A stretch of 64,000 nucleotides of DNA, taken from NCBI GenBank assembly GCA_023954475.1, contig JAMLHW010000011.1, forward strand, positions 1 through 64,000. Direction: 5' to 3'. The position numbers were made by a program, and so were the translations under genes. The notes beneath the pieces were generated by a model. It saw only the letters and a list, made by a program, of their open reading frames with translations. It was not told the origin of the DNA and made no database searches. Below, in pieces: positions 21,238 to 31,440 of the stretch; the stretch's first letter is position 1, and the number at the start of each line of letters is the position of its first letter. This DNA comes from Anaerolineae bacterium (GTDB lineage Bacteria; Chloroflexota; Anaerolineae; Promineifilales; Promineifilaceae).

Positions 21238-22509
21238 CTACAATACTTCATGCCACACTACATAGTCTTGCGCAGCTTCTTCAGGGCGTTTCCAGAATAG
21301 ACGCCGCTTCAGTATATTGGTTCGCGTAAGAGCCTGTGCTGCTGCCTGTCCGTCACGATAGTACAATCGCGCAAAATCCGTCTCCGGTCGTTCCCCCGCG
21401 CCCCTTGTCACGAGGTCTGCCAGTCTGGTGTTTATTTTGCGCTGCCTGCCGCGTGCGCAGGTTTGCAGTTTCGTTGTGTAGCTATTGGGTAATTGCCGTG
21501 CAGCGTAATGCTGGCCACATTTGCCGTGCCTGCCGCGATGGTCGACAAAGTGAAAGACGGCGTTACCGTGCGCATAGGCGTCATTTTCGGCCGAATCACT
21601 CCCCCACCCTGCTCCAATCGTGAAGTTACGCTTGCGGCCGATGCCCGCCTGTTGTTCGTAGTGGGCTTGCGTTCGAGCTGGCACACCTGTCACTTGCTCA
21701 ATTGCAGCACGGGAGACTGGCTGACCTGCTGGGCGTCCGGCGTGGAATGCAGCGTAAAACAACGCCCGTGCTTGTCCGATTGAGCCTGTCAGGCCTGCCA
21801 GCGGTAACATCACAGCCCGATTTTGTAACCGCGCAATGCCGAGATTGGCAGCAACGCGTGCTGCGCCAAAGATCCACAATCGCCCCTGGTCATCCCGATC
21901 CCAGAAAACGCTTTTTCCCTGGCCCAAGATCTGTCGCAACCGTCTTCGGCCGAAGAGTGCTACAGACAGTGGATCAGATTGCCCCTTAACTCTTCCTTTA
22001 TGGTGAGCTTCTTTCTTGACAAATGCTCGCTGTATCGCATCCATGGCAATCCAGCCGCGTCCATCACGATCCAGGTACCGACACAAAAGCCACACGCGGC
22101 CCACAGCAACCTGTTCATTCTTGAGTATGGCATTGAGCAATGTCGGATATGCTTTTATAGTGGTAGGTGGTGGAAAAGATTGTTTTATTACTATGCGAAG
22201 TTTTTTTGATTCAGAACGTATCGCACCCTGTAAATTACCACCAGAAGACCTGCGCAAGATAGCCGTCATCCGCGCGCTGTCCCAGCCCAAATGCGCCGGT
22301 AACTTGCTGTCTTTTGCCCTGGACAGAGGTGTATCGAGGTGCCGGCCTACAGCACTCTGCCGGTGCCGCACTTGAGCCCGCAGACTAAGCAAACGCTCGT
22401 TGGCAGCCAGTAACGAGGCGCTCGGATCGGCTACCGGCAAACTATCGCGCTGAATTGCGTCAGCCTGTGGCGTGTTGACACCTTTGGCTGGCTGTGCTAT
22501 GCTTTTCAT
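21238..22509 (-). CDS. Putative plasmid-type replication initiator (two winged-helix segments)
   Basis: Protein of 423 residues read from ATG 22509. Two segments look like winged-helix DNA-binding folds: one around VGRVWLLCRYLDRDGRGWIA with following AIQRAFV, and one around ALFYAAFHAGRPAG with SRAAIEQVTGVPARTQ. Paired winged helices are typical of iteron-plasmid Rep proteins, and similar proteins recur in Chloroflexota, but I cannot name a family with certainty. The C terminus is basic. The 68-codon upstream extension to 22713 is rejected: it has no recognisable sequence and is covered in antisense by a small RNA gene whose promoter lies inside this gene's 5' end. Position beside partition genes and an antirepressor supports a replication or element-maintenance role. 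A phage or regulator origin remains possible. Confidence 0.5.
   Translation of the reverse strand: MKSIAQPAKGVNTPQADAIQRDSLPVADPSASLLAANERLLSLRAQVRHRQSAVGRHLDTPLSRAKDSKLPAHLGWDSARMTAILRRSSGGNLQGAIRSESKKLRIVIKQSFPPPTTIKAYPTLLNAILKNEQVAVGRVWLLCRYLDRDGRGWIAMDAIQRAFVKKEAHHKGRVKGQSDPLSVALFGRRRLRQILGQGKSVFWDRDDQGRLWIFGAARVAANLGIARLQNRAVMLPLAGLTGSIGQARALFYAAFHAGRPAGQPVSRAAIEQVTGVPARTQAHYEQQAGIGRKRNFTIGAGWGSDSAENDAYAHGNAVFHFVDHRGRHGKCGQHYAARQLPNSYTTKLQTCARGRQRKINTRLADLVTRGAGERPETDFARLYYRDGQAAAQALTRTNILKRRLFWKRPEEAAQDYVVWHEVL
22475..22503 (+). promoter_or_regulatory. Sigma70 promoter of small RNA 1
   Basis: TTGACA (22475-22480), 17-bp spacer, TATGCT (22498-22503). It lies within the first codons of the minus-strand putative rep gene. 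Expected start is about 22510. Confidence 0.7.
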
Positions 22510-22655
22510 GGTTATACTAGCCTGTTGGAGACACAAAATCCCCTCCCCATACGGGGCCGTCTGCGCCAGTGCTCGCAACACTGGCCAGGCGCGAACAGGC
22601 TCTAAAGTTTTGTCGCAATTTGGGCCGGATGTGTACAGACATCCGGCCTTTTGCG
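22510..22655 (+). ncRNA. C-rich structured small RNA, copy 1 of 3
   Basis: A closing stem pairs AGCCTGTT (22519-22526) with AACAGGCT (22594-22601). Inside are AAAATCCCCTCCCC, a CCCC/GGGG hairpin (22545-22556) with an ATAC loop, and a 7-bp hairpin GCCAGTG/CACTGGC (22565-22585). ACAAAA (22533-22538) can also pair with TTTTGT (22608-22613), which would make a pseudoknot. An intrinsic terminator follows: GGCCGGATGT/ACATCCGGCC (22623-22648, perfect 10 bp) then TTTTGC. No ORF or Shine-Dalgarno is apparent. Copies 2 and 3 keep the layout but change the stem sequences, strong evidence that the structure is selected. It is complementary to the leader of the divergent putative rep gene. Confidence 0.75.
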
Positions 22656-22719
22656 TTTCAGGCAGTTGACAAGACACCTGTATGCCAGGCGCTTCGCTGC
22701 AAATCGCACACAACTACCC

Positions 22720-22756
22720 TCATCTGGACAGGAATTGAAGATTCACGTCCAGATGA
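22720..22756. repeat. 37-bp near-perfect inverted repeat between small RNAs 1 and 2
   Basis: TCATCTGGAC (22720-22729) is the exact complement of GTCCAGATGA (22747-22756), with an inner GAAT/ATTC pair (22732-22735, 22741-22744). It has no T run, so it is more likely a protein-binding site or RNA element in the leader of the minus-strand rep-like gene than a terminator. Confidence 0.5.
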
Positions 22757-22772
22757 CGATGTTTGGTCACTA

Positions 22773-22801
22773 TTGATTACGGCGCACAATTCTGCTATGC
22801 T
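22773..22801 (+). promoter_or_regulatory. Sigma70 promoter of small RNA 2
   Basis: TTGATT (22773-22778), 17-bp spacer, TATGCT (22796-22801): the same -10 and spacing as copy 1. Start about 22807. Confidence 0.7.
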
Positions 22802-22806
22802 TAGTC

Positions 22807-22950
22807 AAACGCGGCTCAGGGGTGCAAACAAAACCCCTCCCTCAACAGGGATGCTACAGTTGATGTAAGCGCACTGACTGTAGCGCGACGGTATGCGTTT
22901 AGAACACAGCAGCAAAGGCTAGATGTTTGGCGACAGGCTAGCCTTTTTGC
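22807..22950 (+). ncRNA. C-rich structured small RNA, copy 2 of 3
   Basis: Closing stem AAACGC (22807-22812) with GCGTTT (22895-22900); conserved ACAAAACCCCTCCC; small CCC/GGG hairpin (22839-22850); 8-bp hairpin GCTACAGT/ACTGTAGC (22853-22884); terminator AAAGGCTAG/CTAGCCTTT (22914-22946, perfect 9 bp) then TTGCTTTT. CAAACA (22825-22830) complements TGTTTG (22924-22929) in the terminator loop, a possible tertiary contact. Except for the A-rich/C-rich block and the TTTTGC tail, the primary sequence differs from copy 1. Confidence 0.75.
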
Positions 22951-23061
22951 TTTTCAGGGCACTGACTGTTACTGCAACTACTCAGCAACCTGATTTCATC
23001 GGCCGATTTCCCAGGGTACAACCCATAGCGACAGACGAAAGCGGATTTCCGAGCTGATGCA

Positions 23062-23090
23062 TTGACATCGCGATCTACCTATGTTATCCT
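23062..23090 (+). promoter_or_regulatory. Sigma70 promoter of small RNA 3
   Basis: TTGACA (23062-23067), 17-bp spacer, TATCCT (23085-23090). Start about 23097. Confidence 0.7.
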
Positions 23091-23096
23091 TTGCTT

Positions 23097-23243
23097 GAAC
23101 GCAATTGGCGTGAGGCAAAAAAACACCCCTCCCTAAAATCGGGGACAATCGGTATTAGTGTTCCCGCACCTGTACCGATGACGCAAATTGAGTTTAGATA
23201 TCCGAAGCGATTAAAGCTGGTGTTCCCGCACCGGCTTTTTTGC
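23097..23243 (+). ncRNA. C-rich structured small RNA, copy 3 of 3
   Basis: Closing stem CAATTGGCGT (23102-23111) with ACGCAAATTG (23181-23190), nine pairs and one G-A mismatch; conserved CACCCCTCCC; CCC/GGG hairpin (23131-23143); 7-bp hairpin ATCGGTA/TACCGAT (23148-23179) with an inner GTG/CAC; terminator AAAGCTGGTG/CACCGGCTTT (23213-23238, one G-U) then TTTGC. Spacing from copy 2 is about 290 bp, as between copies 1 and 2. Confidence 0.75.
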
Positions 23244-23354: not shown

Positions 23355-24836
23355 TCAAACCGACCAAGTAGCCAAATCGTCGTCAACCTGTTTTAGATCG
23401 AGTAGCCGGATACCAAGAGACTGCCAGCGCCGTGAACGACTGGCCCGGTTCTCTAGAATCCGATGAGCCTGCTTCTCTGCATCGGCTGACCAGCCCTGCG
23501 CAGAAAACAGAACAAAATAGACATTCCACGGTTCGTCGTCTTTTGGTAACAGCGTCGCCGTTTTCTGTACCAGTTCCTCTATGGCGGTAGGCCCCTGCGC
23601 ATCTTCCCAGTAGCAGTCACCAAGTACGAGCGTGTTGTCCACATCGTTTATTCCCACAACGTCGATCGTCGTGCTTCGCGTCCATTCACTGCCGACTTCA
23701 TCAATACGGAGTCCGAGATCTCCAGTGGCGCTACTCATCAATAACCAGTCGCGACACAGTTCTTGCCATGTGTTGGCGGCAATGAAACTGGGAAGCTCGC
23801 GCTCAATGAGTTCCAGCACCGACTGCACCTGCCCTAGAGCCAGCTTCGACTGATATGCCGATAAGAAACGATAAAAGAAGCGCAAGTACGGATCGGTCAA
23901 GAAGTAGCGACCACGTCGGGAATCTGTTCCGCGCTGCGAAATGGGAACGCGTCTTTCCACAAATCCCGTATCGCGCAATACGCTGAGATAAAAAGATGCC
24001 TTGCTGCTGGACATACCGGCGCGCTTGGCAATGTCGCCCAGTGCTTGATGCCCGTCAGCGACAGCACGCATCAGGCCAACATAGTTGTGCAAATCAGTGA
24101 TGAAATCTTGCAGCAGGATACGTGACTCGTCAATCATCCAGGCGTAGGCCGGCAAAATATTCTGACGCAAATTGTCCATGACGCCGCGTTGCAGGTTGAC
24201 ACGCTCCCAATATGCGGGCACACCGCCCCACATGGCGTACATCGAAACACGCTCAGCCGGACTATAACCCGGAAAGTAATCTTTTGTGGCGCCATATGGC
24301 AGCGGCGGTAGCATCATTTGAGCGGTGGCACGTCCATAGAGCGGTGCTTCATAGTCAATCAGATGGCGATAGATTTGTCCCATCTGCGAGCCGGAGAGCG
24401 CCAACATCAAATTAGAGTTGCTCAGCCAGCGATCCCATGCTTTTTGCAAAATACCGACAAGATCAGGATTGACATCGATGAGGTAGGTCACCTCATCGAT
24501 GAAGAGAGCAATCCGGCGCTCTTGCGCATGAAAAGCCAACTGCCGAAAAGCTTGCTCCCACGTCGTGTAAGTGAAATCTGGAGGAATCTCGGCTTCAGGA
24601 TCAACATAAGCCATTAAGGCGTGTGTGAATGAGCGCAGTTGGGTTAGTGCCGAAGCAGGCTCGGCAACCCAATACAAACCACTATGCGGCTGCTGTTGCA
24701 GCCAATGGGTAAGCAAACGGGTCTTGCCGACACGACGCCGACCGTATAGAATAAGTAATGTCGCTCTTGATGAATCCCAAAGATTGTCTAGAACTTCTAG
24801 CTCTCGACTGCGACCGACAAAGTTCGCTCGGTACAT
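23355..24836 (-). CDS. Archaeal-type AAA ATPase with DUF234 C-terminal domain
   Basis: 493 residues. The N-terminal ATPase has FVGRSRELEVL, P-loop GRRRVGKT (about 32-39), Walker B ALFIDEVTYL and sensor LALSGSQMG; a winged helix follows (IAKRAGMSSSKASFYLSVLRDTG), then the DUF234 region with FLTDPYLRFFYRF and a nuclease-like C terminus (LRIDEVGSEW, TTIDVVGIN, DTLVLGDCYW pattern). The family is widespread in archaea and Chloroflexota with unknown physiological role. The restriction-endonuclease-like D-x(n)-(E/D)-x-K pattern is only partly visible. No operon partner. The gene sits in a 3.7-kb stretch without a single TCGGCCGA palindrome, so recent acquisition is possible. Confidence 0.85.
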   Translation of the reverse strand: MYRANFVGRSRELEVLDNLWDSSRATLLILYGRRRVGKTRLLTHWLQQQPHSGLYWVAEPASALTQLRSFTHALMAYVDPEAEIPPDFTYTTWEQAFRQLAFHAQERRIALFIDEVTYLIDVNPDLVGILQKAWDRWLSNSNLMLALSGSQMGQIYRHLIDYEAPLYGRATAQMMLPPLPYGATKDYFPGYSPAERVSMYAMWGGVPAYWERVNLQRGVMDNLRQNILPAYAWMIDESRILLQDFITDLHNYVGLMRAVADGHQALGDIAKRAGMSSSKASFYLSVLRDTGFVERRVPISQRGTDSRRGRYFLTDPYLRFFYRFLSAYQSKLALGQVQSVLELIERELPSFIAANTWQELCRDWLLMSSATGDLGLRIDEVGSEWTRSTTIDVVGINDVDNTLVLGDCYWEDAQGPTAIEELVQKTATLLPKDDEPWNVYFVLFSAQGWSADAEKQAHRILENRASRSRRWQSLGIRLLDLKQVDDDLATWSV

Positions 24837-28807: not shown

Positions 28808-29620
28808 TCAAAAAGGTATACTTTTGCTGCCGGTTATTTCCTCAAACCAATCCGCCAGCCATGTCATTGCAGTCTGAAACTTTGCTGCTGGCAACAACTT
28901 GTATGACGTAATGCCAAATTTACGATACATCTCACCATATACTGCGCCAAATTCATTCTTCCTCGTCTGCTTGCCCAGTGCAATAGCAATTGCTTTCACT
29001 GCCTGGGAAATCTGGCTGGCCTGGTCAGGTGTAACATGGCGCCCCGGATCGCCCAATGTAGATTCAACTTGTTCCAAACGTATCTCATGATCAGCCAACT
29101 GACTGGCATGTGTTTCCAGCTGCGCTTCGAGAAGTATCTGGTTGCGGGCCAGTTTAACTAATGCTTGCAGCATTTTGTAAGCCTGGACTGCTTCAGAATC
29201 AGTGCGCAGCAATTCGTCAAAAGTAGGATCGGCCGTTAGTCGCCCTTCCTGAAATGCCTCCCACAATACCTTAGCCGATTCCTTCTGATATTGAACCAGC
29301 TTATCTTTAATGTCTTCCTTCACCCGGCGCACATCTACGCCAGATAACCACATGGGAACAAGGTCAACGCGCAACATTCCCGCCTGCTGCGGATGTCCGG
29401 CATTGGGTATTTCTACCTCGGCATTTTTGTATCCTTCTGACAAAACAACGTGTCGGCGAATTCGCTGCATTTGACCCTGTCGATTTAGCCCAAGTGCCTG
29501 ACAGAGGTGGCGCAGGGAAACATAGACTTGCTTGTCATCAGCGCGTACGGCGATGAGTTCATCATTCAAGAAGAAAACGCTTTTTTGCTCAAGTACCACG
29601 ATTTCTGGGCTATTGGTCAT
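28808..29620 (-). CDS. Phage antirepressor-like protein (P22_AR_N plus ORF6C-type domains)
   Basis: 270 residues. Residues about 15-120 match the phage antirepressor N-terminal domain (VYVSLRHLCQALGLNRQGQM, QRIRRHVVLSEG, WLSGVD). A central coiled region (LEAQLETHASQLADHEIRLE) follows, then an ORF6C-like end (KNEFGAVYGEMYRKFGITSYKLLP, AMTWLADWF). In phages such proteins neutralise the prophage repressor. No other phage structural or lysis gene is nearby, so this may be a domesticated or plasmid-borne copy. Two palindromic operators sit 26-85 bp upstream of the start, suggesting tight autoregulation. It is codirectional with the ParA/RHH pair upstream. Confidence 0.85.
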   Translation of the reverse strand: MTNSPEIVVLEQKSVFFLNDELIAVRADDKQVYVSLRHLCQALGLNRQGQMQRIRRHVVLSEGYKNAEVEIPNAGHPQQAGMLRVDLVPMWLSGVDVRRVKEDIKDKLVQYQKESAKVLWEAFQEGRLTADPTFDELLRTDSEAVQAYKMLQALVKLARNQILLEAQLETHASQLADHEIRLEQVESTLGDPGRHVTPDQASQISQAVKAIAIALGKQTRKNEFGAVYGEMYRKFGITSYKLLPAAKFQTAMTWLADWFEEITGSKSIPF

Positions 29621-29966: not shown

Positions 29967-30281
29967 CTATTCGATTTCCGGCATGGACAACACACGTTTA
30001 CTCGTCACGCTGCGGTCACGCTCCAACCGAATGCGCCCTGCCTTGTGCTCCCGAACAAACCACGTCATCGCATAAATGCGCAAACTGTGAACACTGTAGC
30101 CATGTTCCACAGCAAGTTCTTCGAAATATTGATATACATTCAGCGGTATGCGCGTCGATGTATGATGTTTTGGCTGCTCCTCGCGCATAGGCCAGGTCTG
30201 CCTTTCGATTTGATTTTGTGCCGGTTCCACGGGAACGGTTGGCTGAAATAGATTCGTGCTTATCGTAGATTTCTTCGCCAT
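29967..30281 (-). CDS. Small ribbon-helix-helix protein, probable ParB-like partition partner
   Basis: 104 residues with a basic, disordered N terminus and a ribbon-helix-helix pattern at about 39-82 (TSTRIPLNVYQYFEELAVE, followed by a second helix SLRIYAMTWFVREH). It overlaps the end of the parA-like gene by 22 bp, the usual layout for type Ib partition operons in which a small RHH protein binds the centromere and activates ParA. The RHH call is by pattern only. Its likely binding sites are the AT-rich TTGTATTA repeats upstream of parA. Confidence 0.6.
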   Translation of the reverse strand: MAKKSTISTNLFQPTVPVEPAQNQIERQTWPMREEQPKHHTSTRIPLNVYQYFEELAVEHGYSVHSLRIYAMTWFVREHKAGRIRLERDRSVTSKRVLSMPEIE

Positions 30282-31015
30282 TGGTTGATCTCCTCTGCAA
30301 CTGCGACATACGCAGCTGAAGCCGGGTGGCTCGGCTGATACGTGACAATACTCTCCCCAACCCCAAGTGCTTCCGCGACCTTGACCGTGCGCGGGATAAC
30401 TGCGTCAAGGAGCGGCAATTCAGCCTGCTCCATGATGACCAGCGCTTCGCGATGATGGTTGACGCGTTTCATGTACTGGGTGACAAGTACACCGATCACT
30501 TCGAGTATCGGATTGAGAAACTCTTGAACCTGTACAATTGTCGTCAGTAGAAACTCACGTAGACCGTAAAGATCGGCAGCCTGGGGCTGCGTCGGCACGA
30601 CGACACCGCGCGATGCTACCAACGCATTTACCGTTAGCAAGCCCAAAGACGGGGGTGTGTCAATAATGGCGACGTCAAATTCGCTGGCAAGAGGGGCCAG
30701 AATGCGGCTCAGGAGACGCTCACGACCGATGCGCCCACTAATAGCGATCTCCGCTTCCGCCATTTCAATCTGCGACGGCATGATTGCCAGGCTTTCCGAT
30801 AACAGAGCAACTGCAGATTGCGGTCTGGCCGTTCCCATCAGCACATCGTATAACGTATGCGGATGGGAAACACCAATCGCTTTTGTCAACGTCGCCTGAG
30901 GATCGATATCGACCAAGAGCACTCGTTCATGCTCAGCAAACACAGACGCGACTGCATGCGCAGATGTCGTCTTCCCTACGCCACCCTTCATGGTCGCCAT
31001 ACTGATAATGTTCAA
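30260..31015 (-). CDS. parA: ParA-family partition ATPase
   Basis: 251 residues starting at TTG 31015, MNIISMATMKGGVGKTTS. This start is fixed by a perfect GGAGG six nucleotides upstream and by the usual ParA N terminus; an upstream in-frame ATG at 31063 would add 16 unrelated residues. The deviant Walker A KGGVGKT (10-16), Walker A' LLVDIDPQATLT and Walker B VAIIDTPPSLG are all present. There is no N-terminal HTH, so it belongs to the short ParA/Soj/type Ib class that separates plasmids or chromosomal origins. It is followed by the RHH gene, with AT-rich repeats immediately upstream. Confidence 0.9.
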   Translation of the reverse strand: MNIISMATMKGGVGKTTSAHAVASVFAEHERVLLVDIDPQATLTKAIGVSHPHTLYDVLMGTARPQSAVALLSESLAIMPSQIEMAEAEIAISGRIGRERLLSRILAPLASEFDVAIIDTPPSLGLLTVNALVASRGVVVPTQPQAADLYGLREFLLTTIVQVQEFLNPILEVIGVLVTQYMKRVNHHREALVIMEQAELPLLDAVIPRTVKVAEALGVGESIVTYQPSHPASAAYVAVAEEINQWRRNLR

Positions 31016-31059
31016 TTGTCGCCTCCATAATCTGGTTTGTTCTACTTGTAACAAGTTTA

Positions 31060-31440
31060 GCACAAGTAACTAATGTATCAAAGTATATACAAGTATTATT
31101 TGTATTACAAATATTACCAATAACACGATGCATTTAACAGCCGATGCACACCAGATTCCAGCAATCGGACAATGGTGATAGCAAAACACAACAAACACGA
31201 TGAACTAAGCAATAAAAACCACCAAATTTGCGCCACAACGAATTTTGGTGCCACTCATAGACTCCGTTGAACTGAATGATCTTCAGCGCAGCGCAACGCA
31301 ATTTTGACGATTGCAGTGAAACGTCTTGAAAAGGGCCTCGGCGCGGCCACAAATGTCACATTATGTATTACATTATTTACTTGTATAAATTGTATTATTA
31401 TTATTACTAATAATACTTGTATTACATATAATACAAAAGG
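31060..31440. repeat. AT-rich repeat region upstream of parA, candidate centromere
   Basis: Two AT-rich clusters (31060-31130 and 31350-31440) carry repeats of TTGTATTA or TGTATTA: 31100, 31364, 31390, 31417 on the + strand and TAATACAA at 31429 on the other. ACAAGTATTATT at 31089 is a related variant. They stand out sharply from the GC-rich surroundings. Iterated A+T-rich boxes beside parA are the known form of parS/parC sites and of iteron origins. The 533 bp between parA and the next gene hold no supported ORF. Confidence 0.5.

Follow-up and report, generated by a model that had tools for sequence, protein, structure and literature searches.

The locus described here raises the question of what three small RNA genes, set in tandem beside a long open reading frame on the other strand, could be doing in a bacterium of the Chloroflexota. 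The sequence-only reading had placed three such genes, sharing a fold, at 22475-23243 of the window, by which we mean the whole 64,000-nucleotide stretch of DNA analysed, and had proposed that they represent a new C-rich RNA family. The genes are indeed present there (Table 1), with a predicted length of about 145 nt each and a common layout of closing stem, A-rich stretch with CCCCTCCC, CCC/GGG hairpin, longer hairpin, closing strand and T-tailed terminator. The promoters claimed for them are found too, those of units 1 and 3 scoring 10 of 12 with a 17-nt spacer and a TG before the -10 element and that of unit 2 being weaker; the intrinsic terminators of units 1 and 3 were picked up by a terminator scan, and the fold of unit 2 contains a 9-bp AAAGGCTAG/CTAGCCTTT stem with a large loop. 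GTGTTCCCGCACC is common to the apical and terminator hairpins of unit 3. All three units fold better than their dinucleotide shuffles (z = -5.0, -2.5 and -3.8, in order). That no ORF is apparent holds for conserved ORFs on the RNA strand but not for the opposite strand, which carries a 423-codon gene, here called rep-like, and, behind the complement of each C-rich motif, start codons and short ORFs.

Table 1. Coordinates of the RNA units, their promoters and the features of the opposite strand in the window
Feature	Position	Strand	Detail
Promoter of RNA unit 1	22475..22503	+	TTGACA-17-TATGCT
RNA unit 1, nearest to rep	22510..22655	+	predicted core 22518-22602; terminator stem 22622-22649 and T tail
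Promoter of RNA unit 2	22773..22801	+	TTGATT-17-TATGCT; weaker -35 TTGATT
RNA unit 2	22808..22950	+	predicted core 22809-22900; terminator stem about 22914-22946
Promoter of RNA unit 3	23062..23090	+	TTGACA-17-TATCCT
RNA unit 3	23097..23243	+	predicted core 23102-23190; terminator stem 23213-23238
rep-like gene, 423 codons	21238..22509	-	ATG 22509, at 5' end of RNA unit 1
GGGGAGGGG, Shine-Dalgarno-like complement of unit 1 C-rich motif	22540..22548	-	
Putative leader ORF GTG TCT CCA ACA GGC TAG	22517..22534	-	stop 7 nt before rep ATG
GGGAGGGG, complement of unit 2 C-rich motif	22834..22841	-	then TTG and short ORF
GGGAGGGG, complement of unit 3 C-rich motif	23126..23133	-	then TTG

No known RNA family accounts for these genes. 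With 4227 Rfam models and a score at or above the family gathering score as the criterion, nothing was found anywhere in the window, in line with the earlier statement that no named family is known to have this layout; at E<=10 the array region gave one chance-level match, the best score for the region being 16.2 bits against a cut-off of 80. At the canonical loci, as we call the copies with a UUGGCGG loop, which occur once per genome and are kept in most genomes with several copies, the best score was 26.6 bits against a cut-off of 50, and ctRNA_p42d (RF00489) reached 22.8 bits against 50 at one of them, over the terminator. Identity with a known family was rejected on the lack of an Rfam match in the window and at the canonical loci. 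A phage or plasmid record as the source was likewise rejected, there being no phage DNA match and no phage or plasmid protein match; none of the viral contigs matched, and small circular plasmids were set aside, 22 short contigs having no terminal overlap.

The RNA is widespread among relatives of its host and is closely tied to the rep-like gene. Searched at the DNA level, the window's own genome proved to carry the RNA at one further locus, on a different contig (L003/L075): three additional units next to a paralogous rep-like gene, with 38% identity to that of the window. This second tripled array lies at L003:2400-3300 (G000:C8). In a protein search the rep-like gene was found in 42 of the 52 genomes of the bacterial family, with up to 14 matches per genome, and the same RNA stands upstream of most rep-like loci, pointing away from the gene. 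The covariance model and genome search that had been suggested as a check gave a clear answer: model R1, built from 19 units, detects the RNA across the bacterial family, in 40 of its 52 genomes, each of which also has the rep-like protein, and 87 of its 89 matches are divergent from a rep-like gene less than 3 kb away, at 70 loci, 11 loci having two to four RNAs in tandem. These relatives are placed among Anaerolineae/Ardenticatenia metagenome genomes of Chloroflexota, and protein searches outside the bacterial family found weak relatives only. In other Chloroflexota, distantly related Rep-like cores (L193:303-1160 and L194:4510-5436) have tyrosine recombinase genes close by, which suggests mobile elements.

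Six weak covariance-model matches fell outside the bacterial family, and five (L187, L188 and L190-L192) were dismissed as chance or C-rich repeats by their look. Only the sixth, L189, has a promoter, C-rich core, hairpin and terminator, and here (L189:2520-4150, in another GTDB family) the RNA lies beside a gene for a 480-aa protein, followed by ParA and ParB genes. This protein bears a DnaA_N domain at its C-terminus, with an E of 2e-5, just under the cut-off, and profile comparison rejected it as a homologue of the Rep family; it is as if the RNA module were portable between non-homologous proteins. The loop GTTGCCGC of the L189 RNA occurs in both hairpin and terminator.

The claim that the stems covary proved sound. 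Of 25 pairs compared across 91 relatives, 20 show changes on both sides, and the covariation is far above controls: double-changed cells number 286, where shuffles give 113 and slid partners 64-86, and the covariation score is 0.286, as against 0.130 and 0.06-0.08 respectively, in an alignment that was fitted to the model, so that the covariation leans towards the structure. This covariation, together with the lack of an Rfam match, supports the proposal of a new RNA family. Its closing stem, AAGCTACC/GGTAGCTT in the commonest RNA type, is followed in the predicted core by a GGGG/CCCC hairpin, a CCCC-AAUAAA-GGGG hairpin and an outer helix, poorly aligned and 48% paired, with an apical stem GGTG-loop-CACC.

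The commonest apical loop is UUGGCGG (30 of 91), and UUGG or its complement (UUGG/CCAA) is present in 12 of 44 distinct apical loops where 2.5 are expected; the general YUNR motif is weakly enriched (21 as against 15.4, p 0.05), and the window loops, CTCGCAA, TAAGCGC and TTCCCGC, have no clear motif of the U-turn type (YUNR, e.g. UUGGCG). The apical loop is often repeated in the terminator hairpin, 21 of 88 RNAs sharing a 6-mer with the 3' flank (4 expected), as with CTGCCAA, the doubled loop sequence of L091. Identical loop pairs within genomes number one where 16.7 are expected, and such differences look like incompatibility-driven divergence, a count that is confounded by the one UUGGCGG ortholog per genome and thus does not serve as proof.

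What conserves the C-rich stretch is indicated by the opposite strand. Read in the direction of the gene, CCCCTCCCC becomes GGGGAGGGG, a Shine-Dalgarno site, and a start codon follows 3-8 nt later in 74 of 81 distinct relatives, compared with 32 +/- 4 in shuffles (maximum 50 in 2000 shuffles), shuffle-based figures overstating independence because the relatives share descent. At a spacing of 6, the first base of the NTG is G in 18 cases, A in 15, T in 14 and C in none, and the ORF that follows has mostly 5-14 codons, being longer or open in a minority. The C-rich stretch is thus most likely conserved because a leader ORF before the rep-like gene has its ribosome-binding site in the complement, so that the family, which stands as an RNA family, is best read as an antisense control RNA and not as the C-rich RNA without an assigned role that was first proposed. 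In the window, the distance from the leader stop to the rep ATG would correspond to a termination-reinitiation geometry.

Promoters are found on both strands. That of the RNA itself scores at least 10 in 88% of 91 relatives and in 0.3% of shuffles. On the gene strand, 127-332 nt past the RNA, a convergent promoter with a score of 11 accompanies 35 of 89 matches (0.6% of shuffles); it is nearly always of the form TTGACA, 17-nt spacer, extended TG, nTAnACT (TTGACA-N14-TG-nTAnACT), a few having another -10, and in some arrays the -10 past the outermost RNA copy is of a different type. At canonical loci a transcript from this promoter would run across the entire complement of the RNA and on into the rep-like gene. 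A promoter scan recognised no convergent rep promoter at the window array. Between units 1 and 2 of the window is a 25-nt imperfect inverted repeat, CATCTGGAC/GTCCAGATG (22711-22765), a possible operator or terminator on the rep strand. A GTTTGGGTTGCCTGTTGC-like stretch recurs in the rep leader, between the RNA promoter and the rep start, at L008, L014, L021 and L023, possibly as a partner for further pairing.

The rep-like protein matches nothing in Pfam, NCBIfam, PHROGs or PADLOC, Rep family models included, and has no meaningful sequence match in the PDB. AlphaFold2 models of 20 relatives had a mean pLDDT of 77, and a Foldseek search of the PDB with the model gave nothing strong. VIA-align placed RepE54 of plasmid F across both winged helices over 157-174 residues (about 160) at a Z of about 6, a middling match below the level that excludes a common arrangement, so the resemblance of the predicted fold to RepE is suggestive only. 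The predicted core (residues 115-348) would be like RepE in aligning across its two winged helices, and is unlike it in having 8-11% identity and no Pfam match, which makes it a candidate RepE-like protein at most. In BFVD, the model of the protein encoded at 21238-22512 of the window has a strong structural match to the viral protein A0A1P8DJE9 (E 1.7e-15). Genes for ParA-type ATPases are found near the rep-like gene at nine of 21 loci, including the window (30260-31063), and ParB genes at four of 21; P22-type antirepressors and a TraG-like ATPase (T4SS) are recurrent neighbours. A P22-type antirepressor gene (28808-29620) and the ParA-like ATPase gene both lie within 10 kb of the window array, and five loci (window 23355-24836, L082, L088, L089 and L092) have a gene of the ATPase_2-DUF234 type upstream of rep and in the same orientation.

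The canonical rep/RNA loci are situated at a switch of GC skew in the ten contigs tested, one of them 1.0 Mb long. In G032:C2, the locus is at 872.6-874.2 kb of a 1,004-kb contig, and a two-state model of skew, in which the contig is taken to be circular, gives an origin at 870 kb, with uneven sampling and an R2 of 0.24. The cumulative skew minimum of G003:C12 falls in the bin at 27 kb, with the locus at 26.1-27.6 kb of 259 kb; in contig 12 of G000, a mostly negative skew over 137 kb reverses at the canonical locus (600-601.7 kb), 2 kb from the contig end. In seven more contigs, skew goes from negative on the left of the locus to positive on its right, and in six of these the minimum is no more than about 3 kb away, several left arms being short and divergent genes possibly adding to the local skew. 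The switch looks like that at a replication origin, in some genomes the origin of a large replicon. An origin at the window locus is not supported, the skew minimum of its 182-kb contig being elsewhere.

'Candidatus Promineofilum breve' is reported to have two chromosomes and a plasmid (PMC6753630), and the three contigs of G032, two of 3.99 and 1.00 Mb, fit this replicon set. With dnaA of G032 located on the 1.0-Mb contig itself, at 670 kb, we can only infer that the canonical locus may be on a second chromosome. We offer tentatively, as a possibility we rather doubt, that it marks the origin of a vertically inherited chromid whose Rep would be under antisense RNA control, and that the extra copies would supply RNAs with altered loops for replicon compatibility or for repression in trans of incoming replicons.

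The reading we favour, and consider very probable from the arrangement of the sequences, is that members of this family are countertranscribed RNAs (ctRNAs) that limit the synthesis of a plasmid-type replication initiator as cis-antisense RNAs. Transcription, duplex formation, translational coupling and the initiator function of the protein are what we infer. The rep mRNA would start at the convergent promoter beyond the RNA gene or genes, run through the complement of the RNA and carry a short leader ORF preceded by the strong ribosome-binding site GGGGAGGGG; translation of this ORF would lead to that of rep. The RNA, made from its strong promoter in proportion to copy number, would kiss the rep mRNA via the UUGGCGG-type apical loop and then pair along its length, its CCCCTCCCC covering the leader ribosome-binding site, so that Rep synthesis would fall as copies rise. 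In the window the rep ATG is at the 5' end of unit 1, so the leader of the rep mRNA has to overlap at least part of that unit in antisense; by its position, unit 1 is predicted to stand in antisense relation to the adjacent rep leader. Units 2 and 3 would be extra copies, pairing with a longer leader or acting in trans, and a cis-antisense role for them would need a transcript that crosses both. Having neither the canonical rep promoter nor a position at the skew minimum, the window copy may be a remnant or differently driven, and that it works as a ctRNA today in the same way as the family is only somewhat better than an even bet.

Other readings have to be weighed against this one. C-rich seeds are known in other bacterial sRNAs, and their similarity to CCCCTCCC, together with arrays of two to four RNAs with different loops, might suggest trans-acting sRNAs that silence many mRNAs through the C-rich stretch as an unpaired anti-Shine-Dalgarno seed, the neighbouring gene being incidental. 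We regard this as improbable, since the same gene family is beside 87 of the 89 matches, the complement keeps the identity of a start codon (never C in the 47 cases), the convergent promoter is conserved, and the C-tracts are paired in the predicted fold.

Even less probable to our mind is that the structures are conserved as parts of the rep mRNA leader alone, with the promoter and terminator on the RNA strand as by-products. The hairpins are visible on both strands, and the GGGG/CCCC hairpin prefers A-C, which is G-U on the mRNA, over G-U by 85 to 10; but the closing stem prefers G-U over A-C by 63 to 21, in an alignment that leans that way, and the conservation of the RNA-strand promoter noted above and the T-tailed terminators on that strand also speak against this reading. 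A divergent RNA next to a protein of no known family, at up to 14-16 matches per genome, could also recall an RNA antitoxin or guide RNA with its protein (a type III toxin-antitoxin system, a transposon guide or similar), an identity to which we give hardly any credence, as PADLOC, Pfam, PHROGs and NCBIfam gave no match, the protein resembles a Rep fold, ParA/ParB genes are nearby and the skew switches at the canonical loci.

As ctRNAs, the RNAs recall control systems of well-studied plasmids. In the gene orders repY-repZ of the IncI complex (ColIb-P9) and tap-repA of IncFII (R1/R100), a divergent RNA promoter lies next to rep. The new RNA would be like the Inc RNA/RNAI of the IncI complex and CopA of IncFII in being complementary to the rep leader, with a divergent promoter beside rep, in having a leader ORF that would be translated ahead of rep, and, in its commonest loop type, in a possible kissing loop of the UUGGCG kind. 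Passages of PMC10724649 describe a kissing loop of the 5'-rUUGGCG-3' kind in ColIb-P9 Inc RNA (Asano 1998, Blomberg 1992) and, with references therein, the blocking of leader-peptide translation by CopA. The new RNA differs from these systems in having no covariance-model match to any Rfam control RNA, a predicted core of four helices in place of one or two stem-loops, a C-rich complement of the leader Shine-Dalgarno site, tandem copies, a Rep without a sequence match and a host among the Chloroflexota.

The Pseudomonas and ColE2-type control module, a short antisense RNA with a leader peptide, is portable across non-homologous Reps (PMC5304414), and the new RNA resembles these ColE2-type and Pseudomonas REx-C modules in also being found beside a different, DnaA_N-bearing protein with ParA/ParB (L189), whereas both RNA and Rep are different and some of the new copies are on very large contigs. 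In repABC chromids an antisense ctRNA controls the initiator of a secondary chromosome, along with ParA/ParB-type genes (PMC6090056); antisense control beside such genes would be shared with this ctRNA (inc-alpha/RepE RNA; RF00489), which in contrast has its place between repB and repC and a length of about 50 nt. The new RNA is best read as working like a ctRNA of the CopA/Inc type, outside every Rfam control-RNA family tested. What we describe is a new RNA family and a new Rep-like family in what would be a circuit of known type, the tandem arrays and doubled loops being unusual.

In summary, the analysis provides a likely function for an RNA family absent from Rfam and for a protein family that Pfam lacks, both from a group of environmental bacteria in which few replicons have been described. 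It also suggests that origins controlled by antisense RNA exist on very large replicons other than those of the repABC systems. Further loci can be found with the covariance model, and in RNA arrays with matched double loops the incompatibility of replicons may be readable from sequence.
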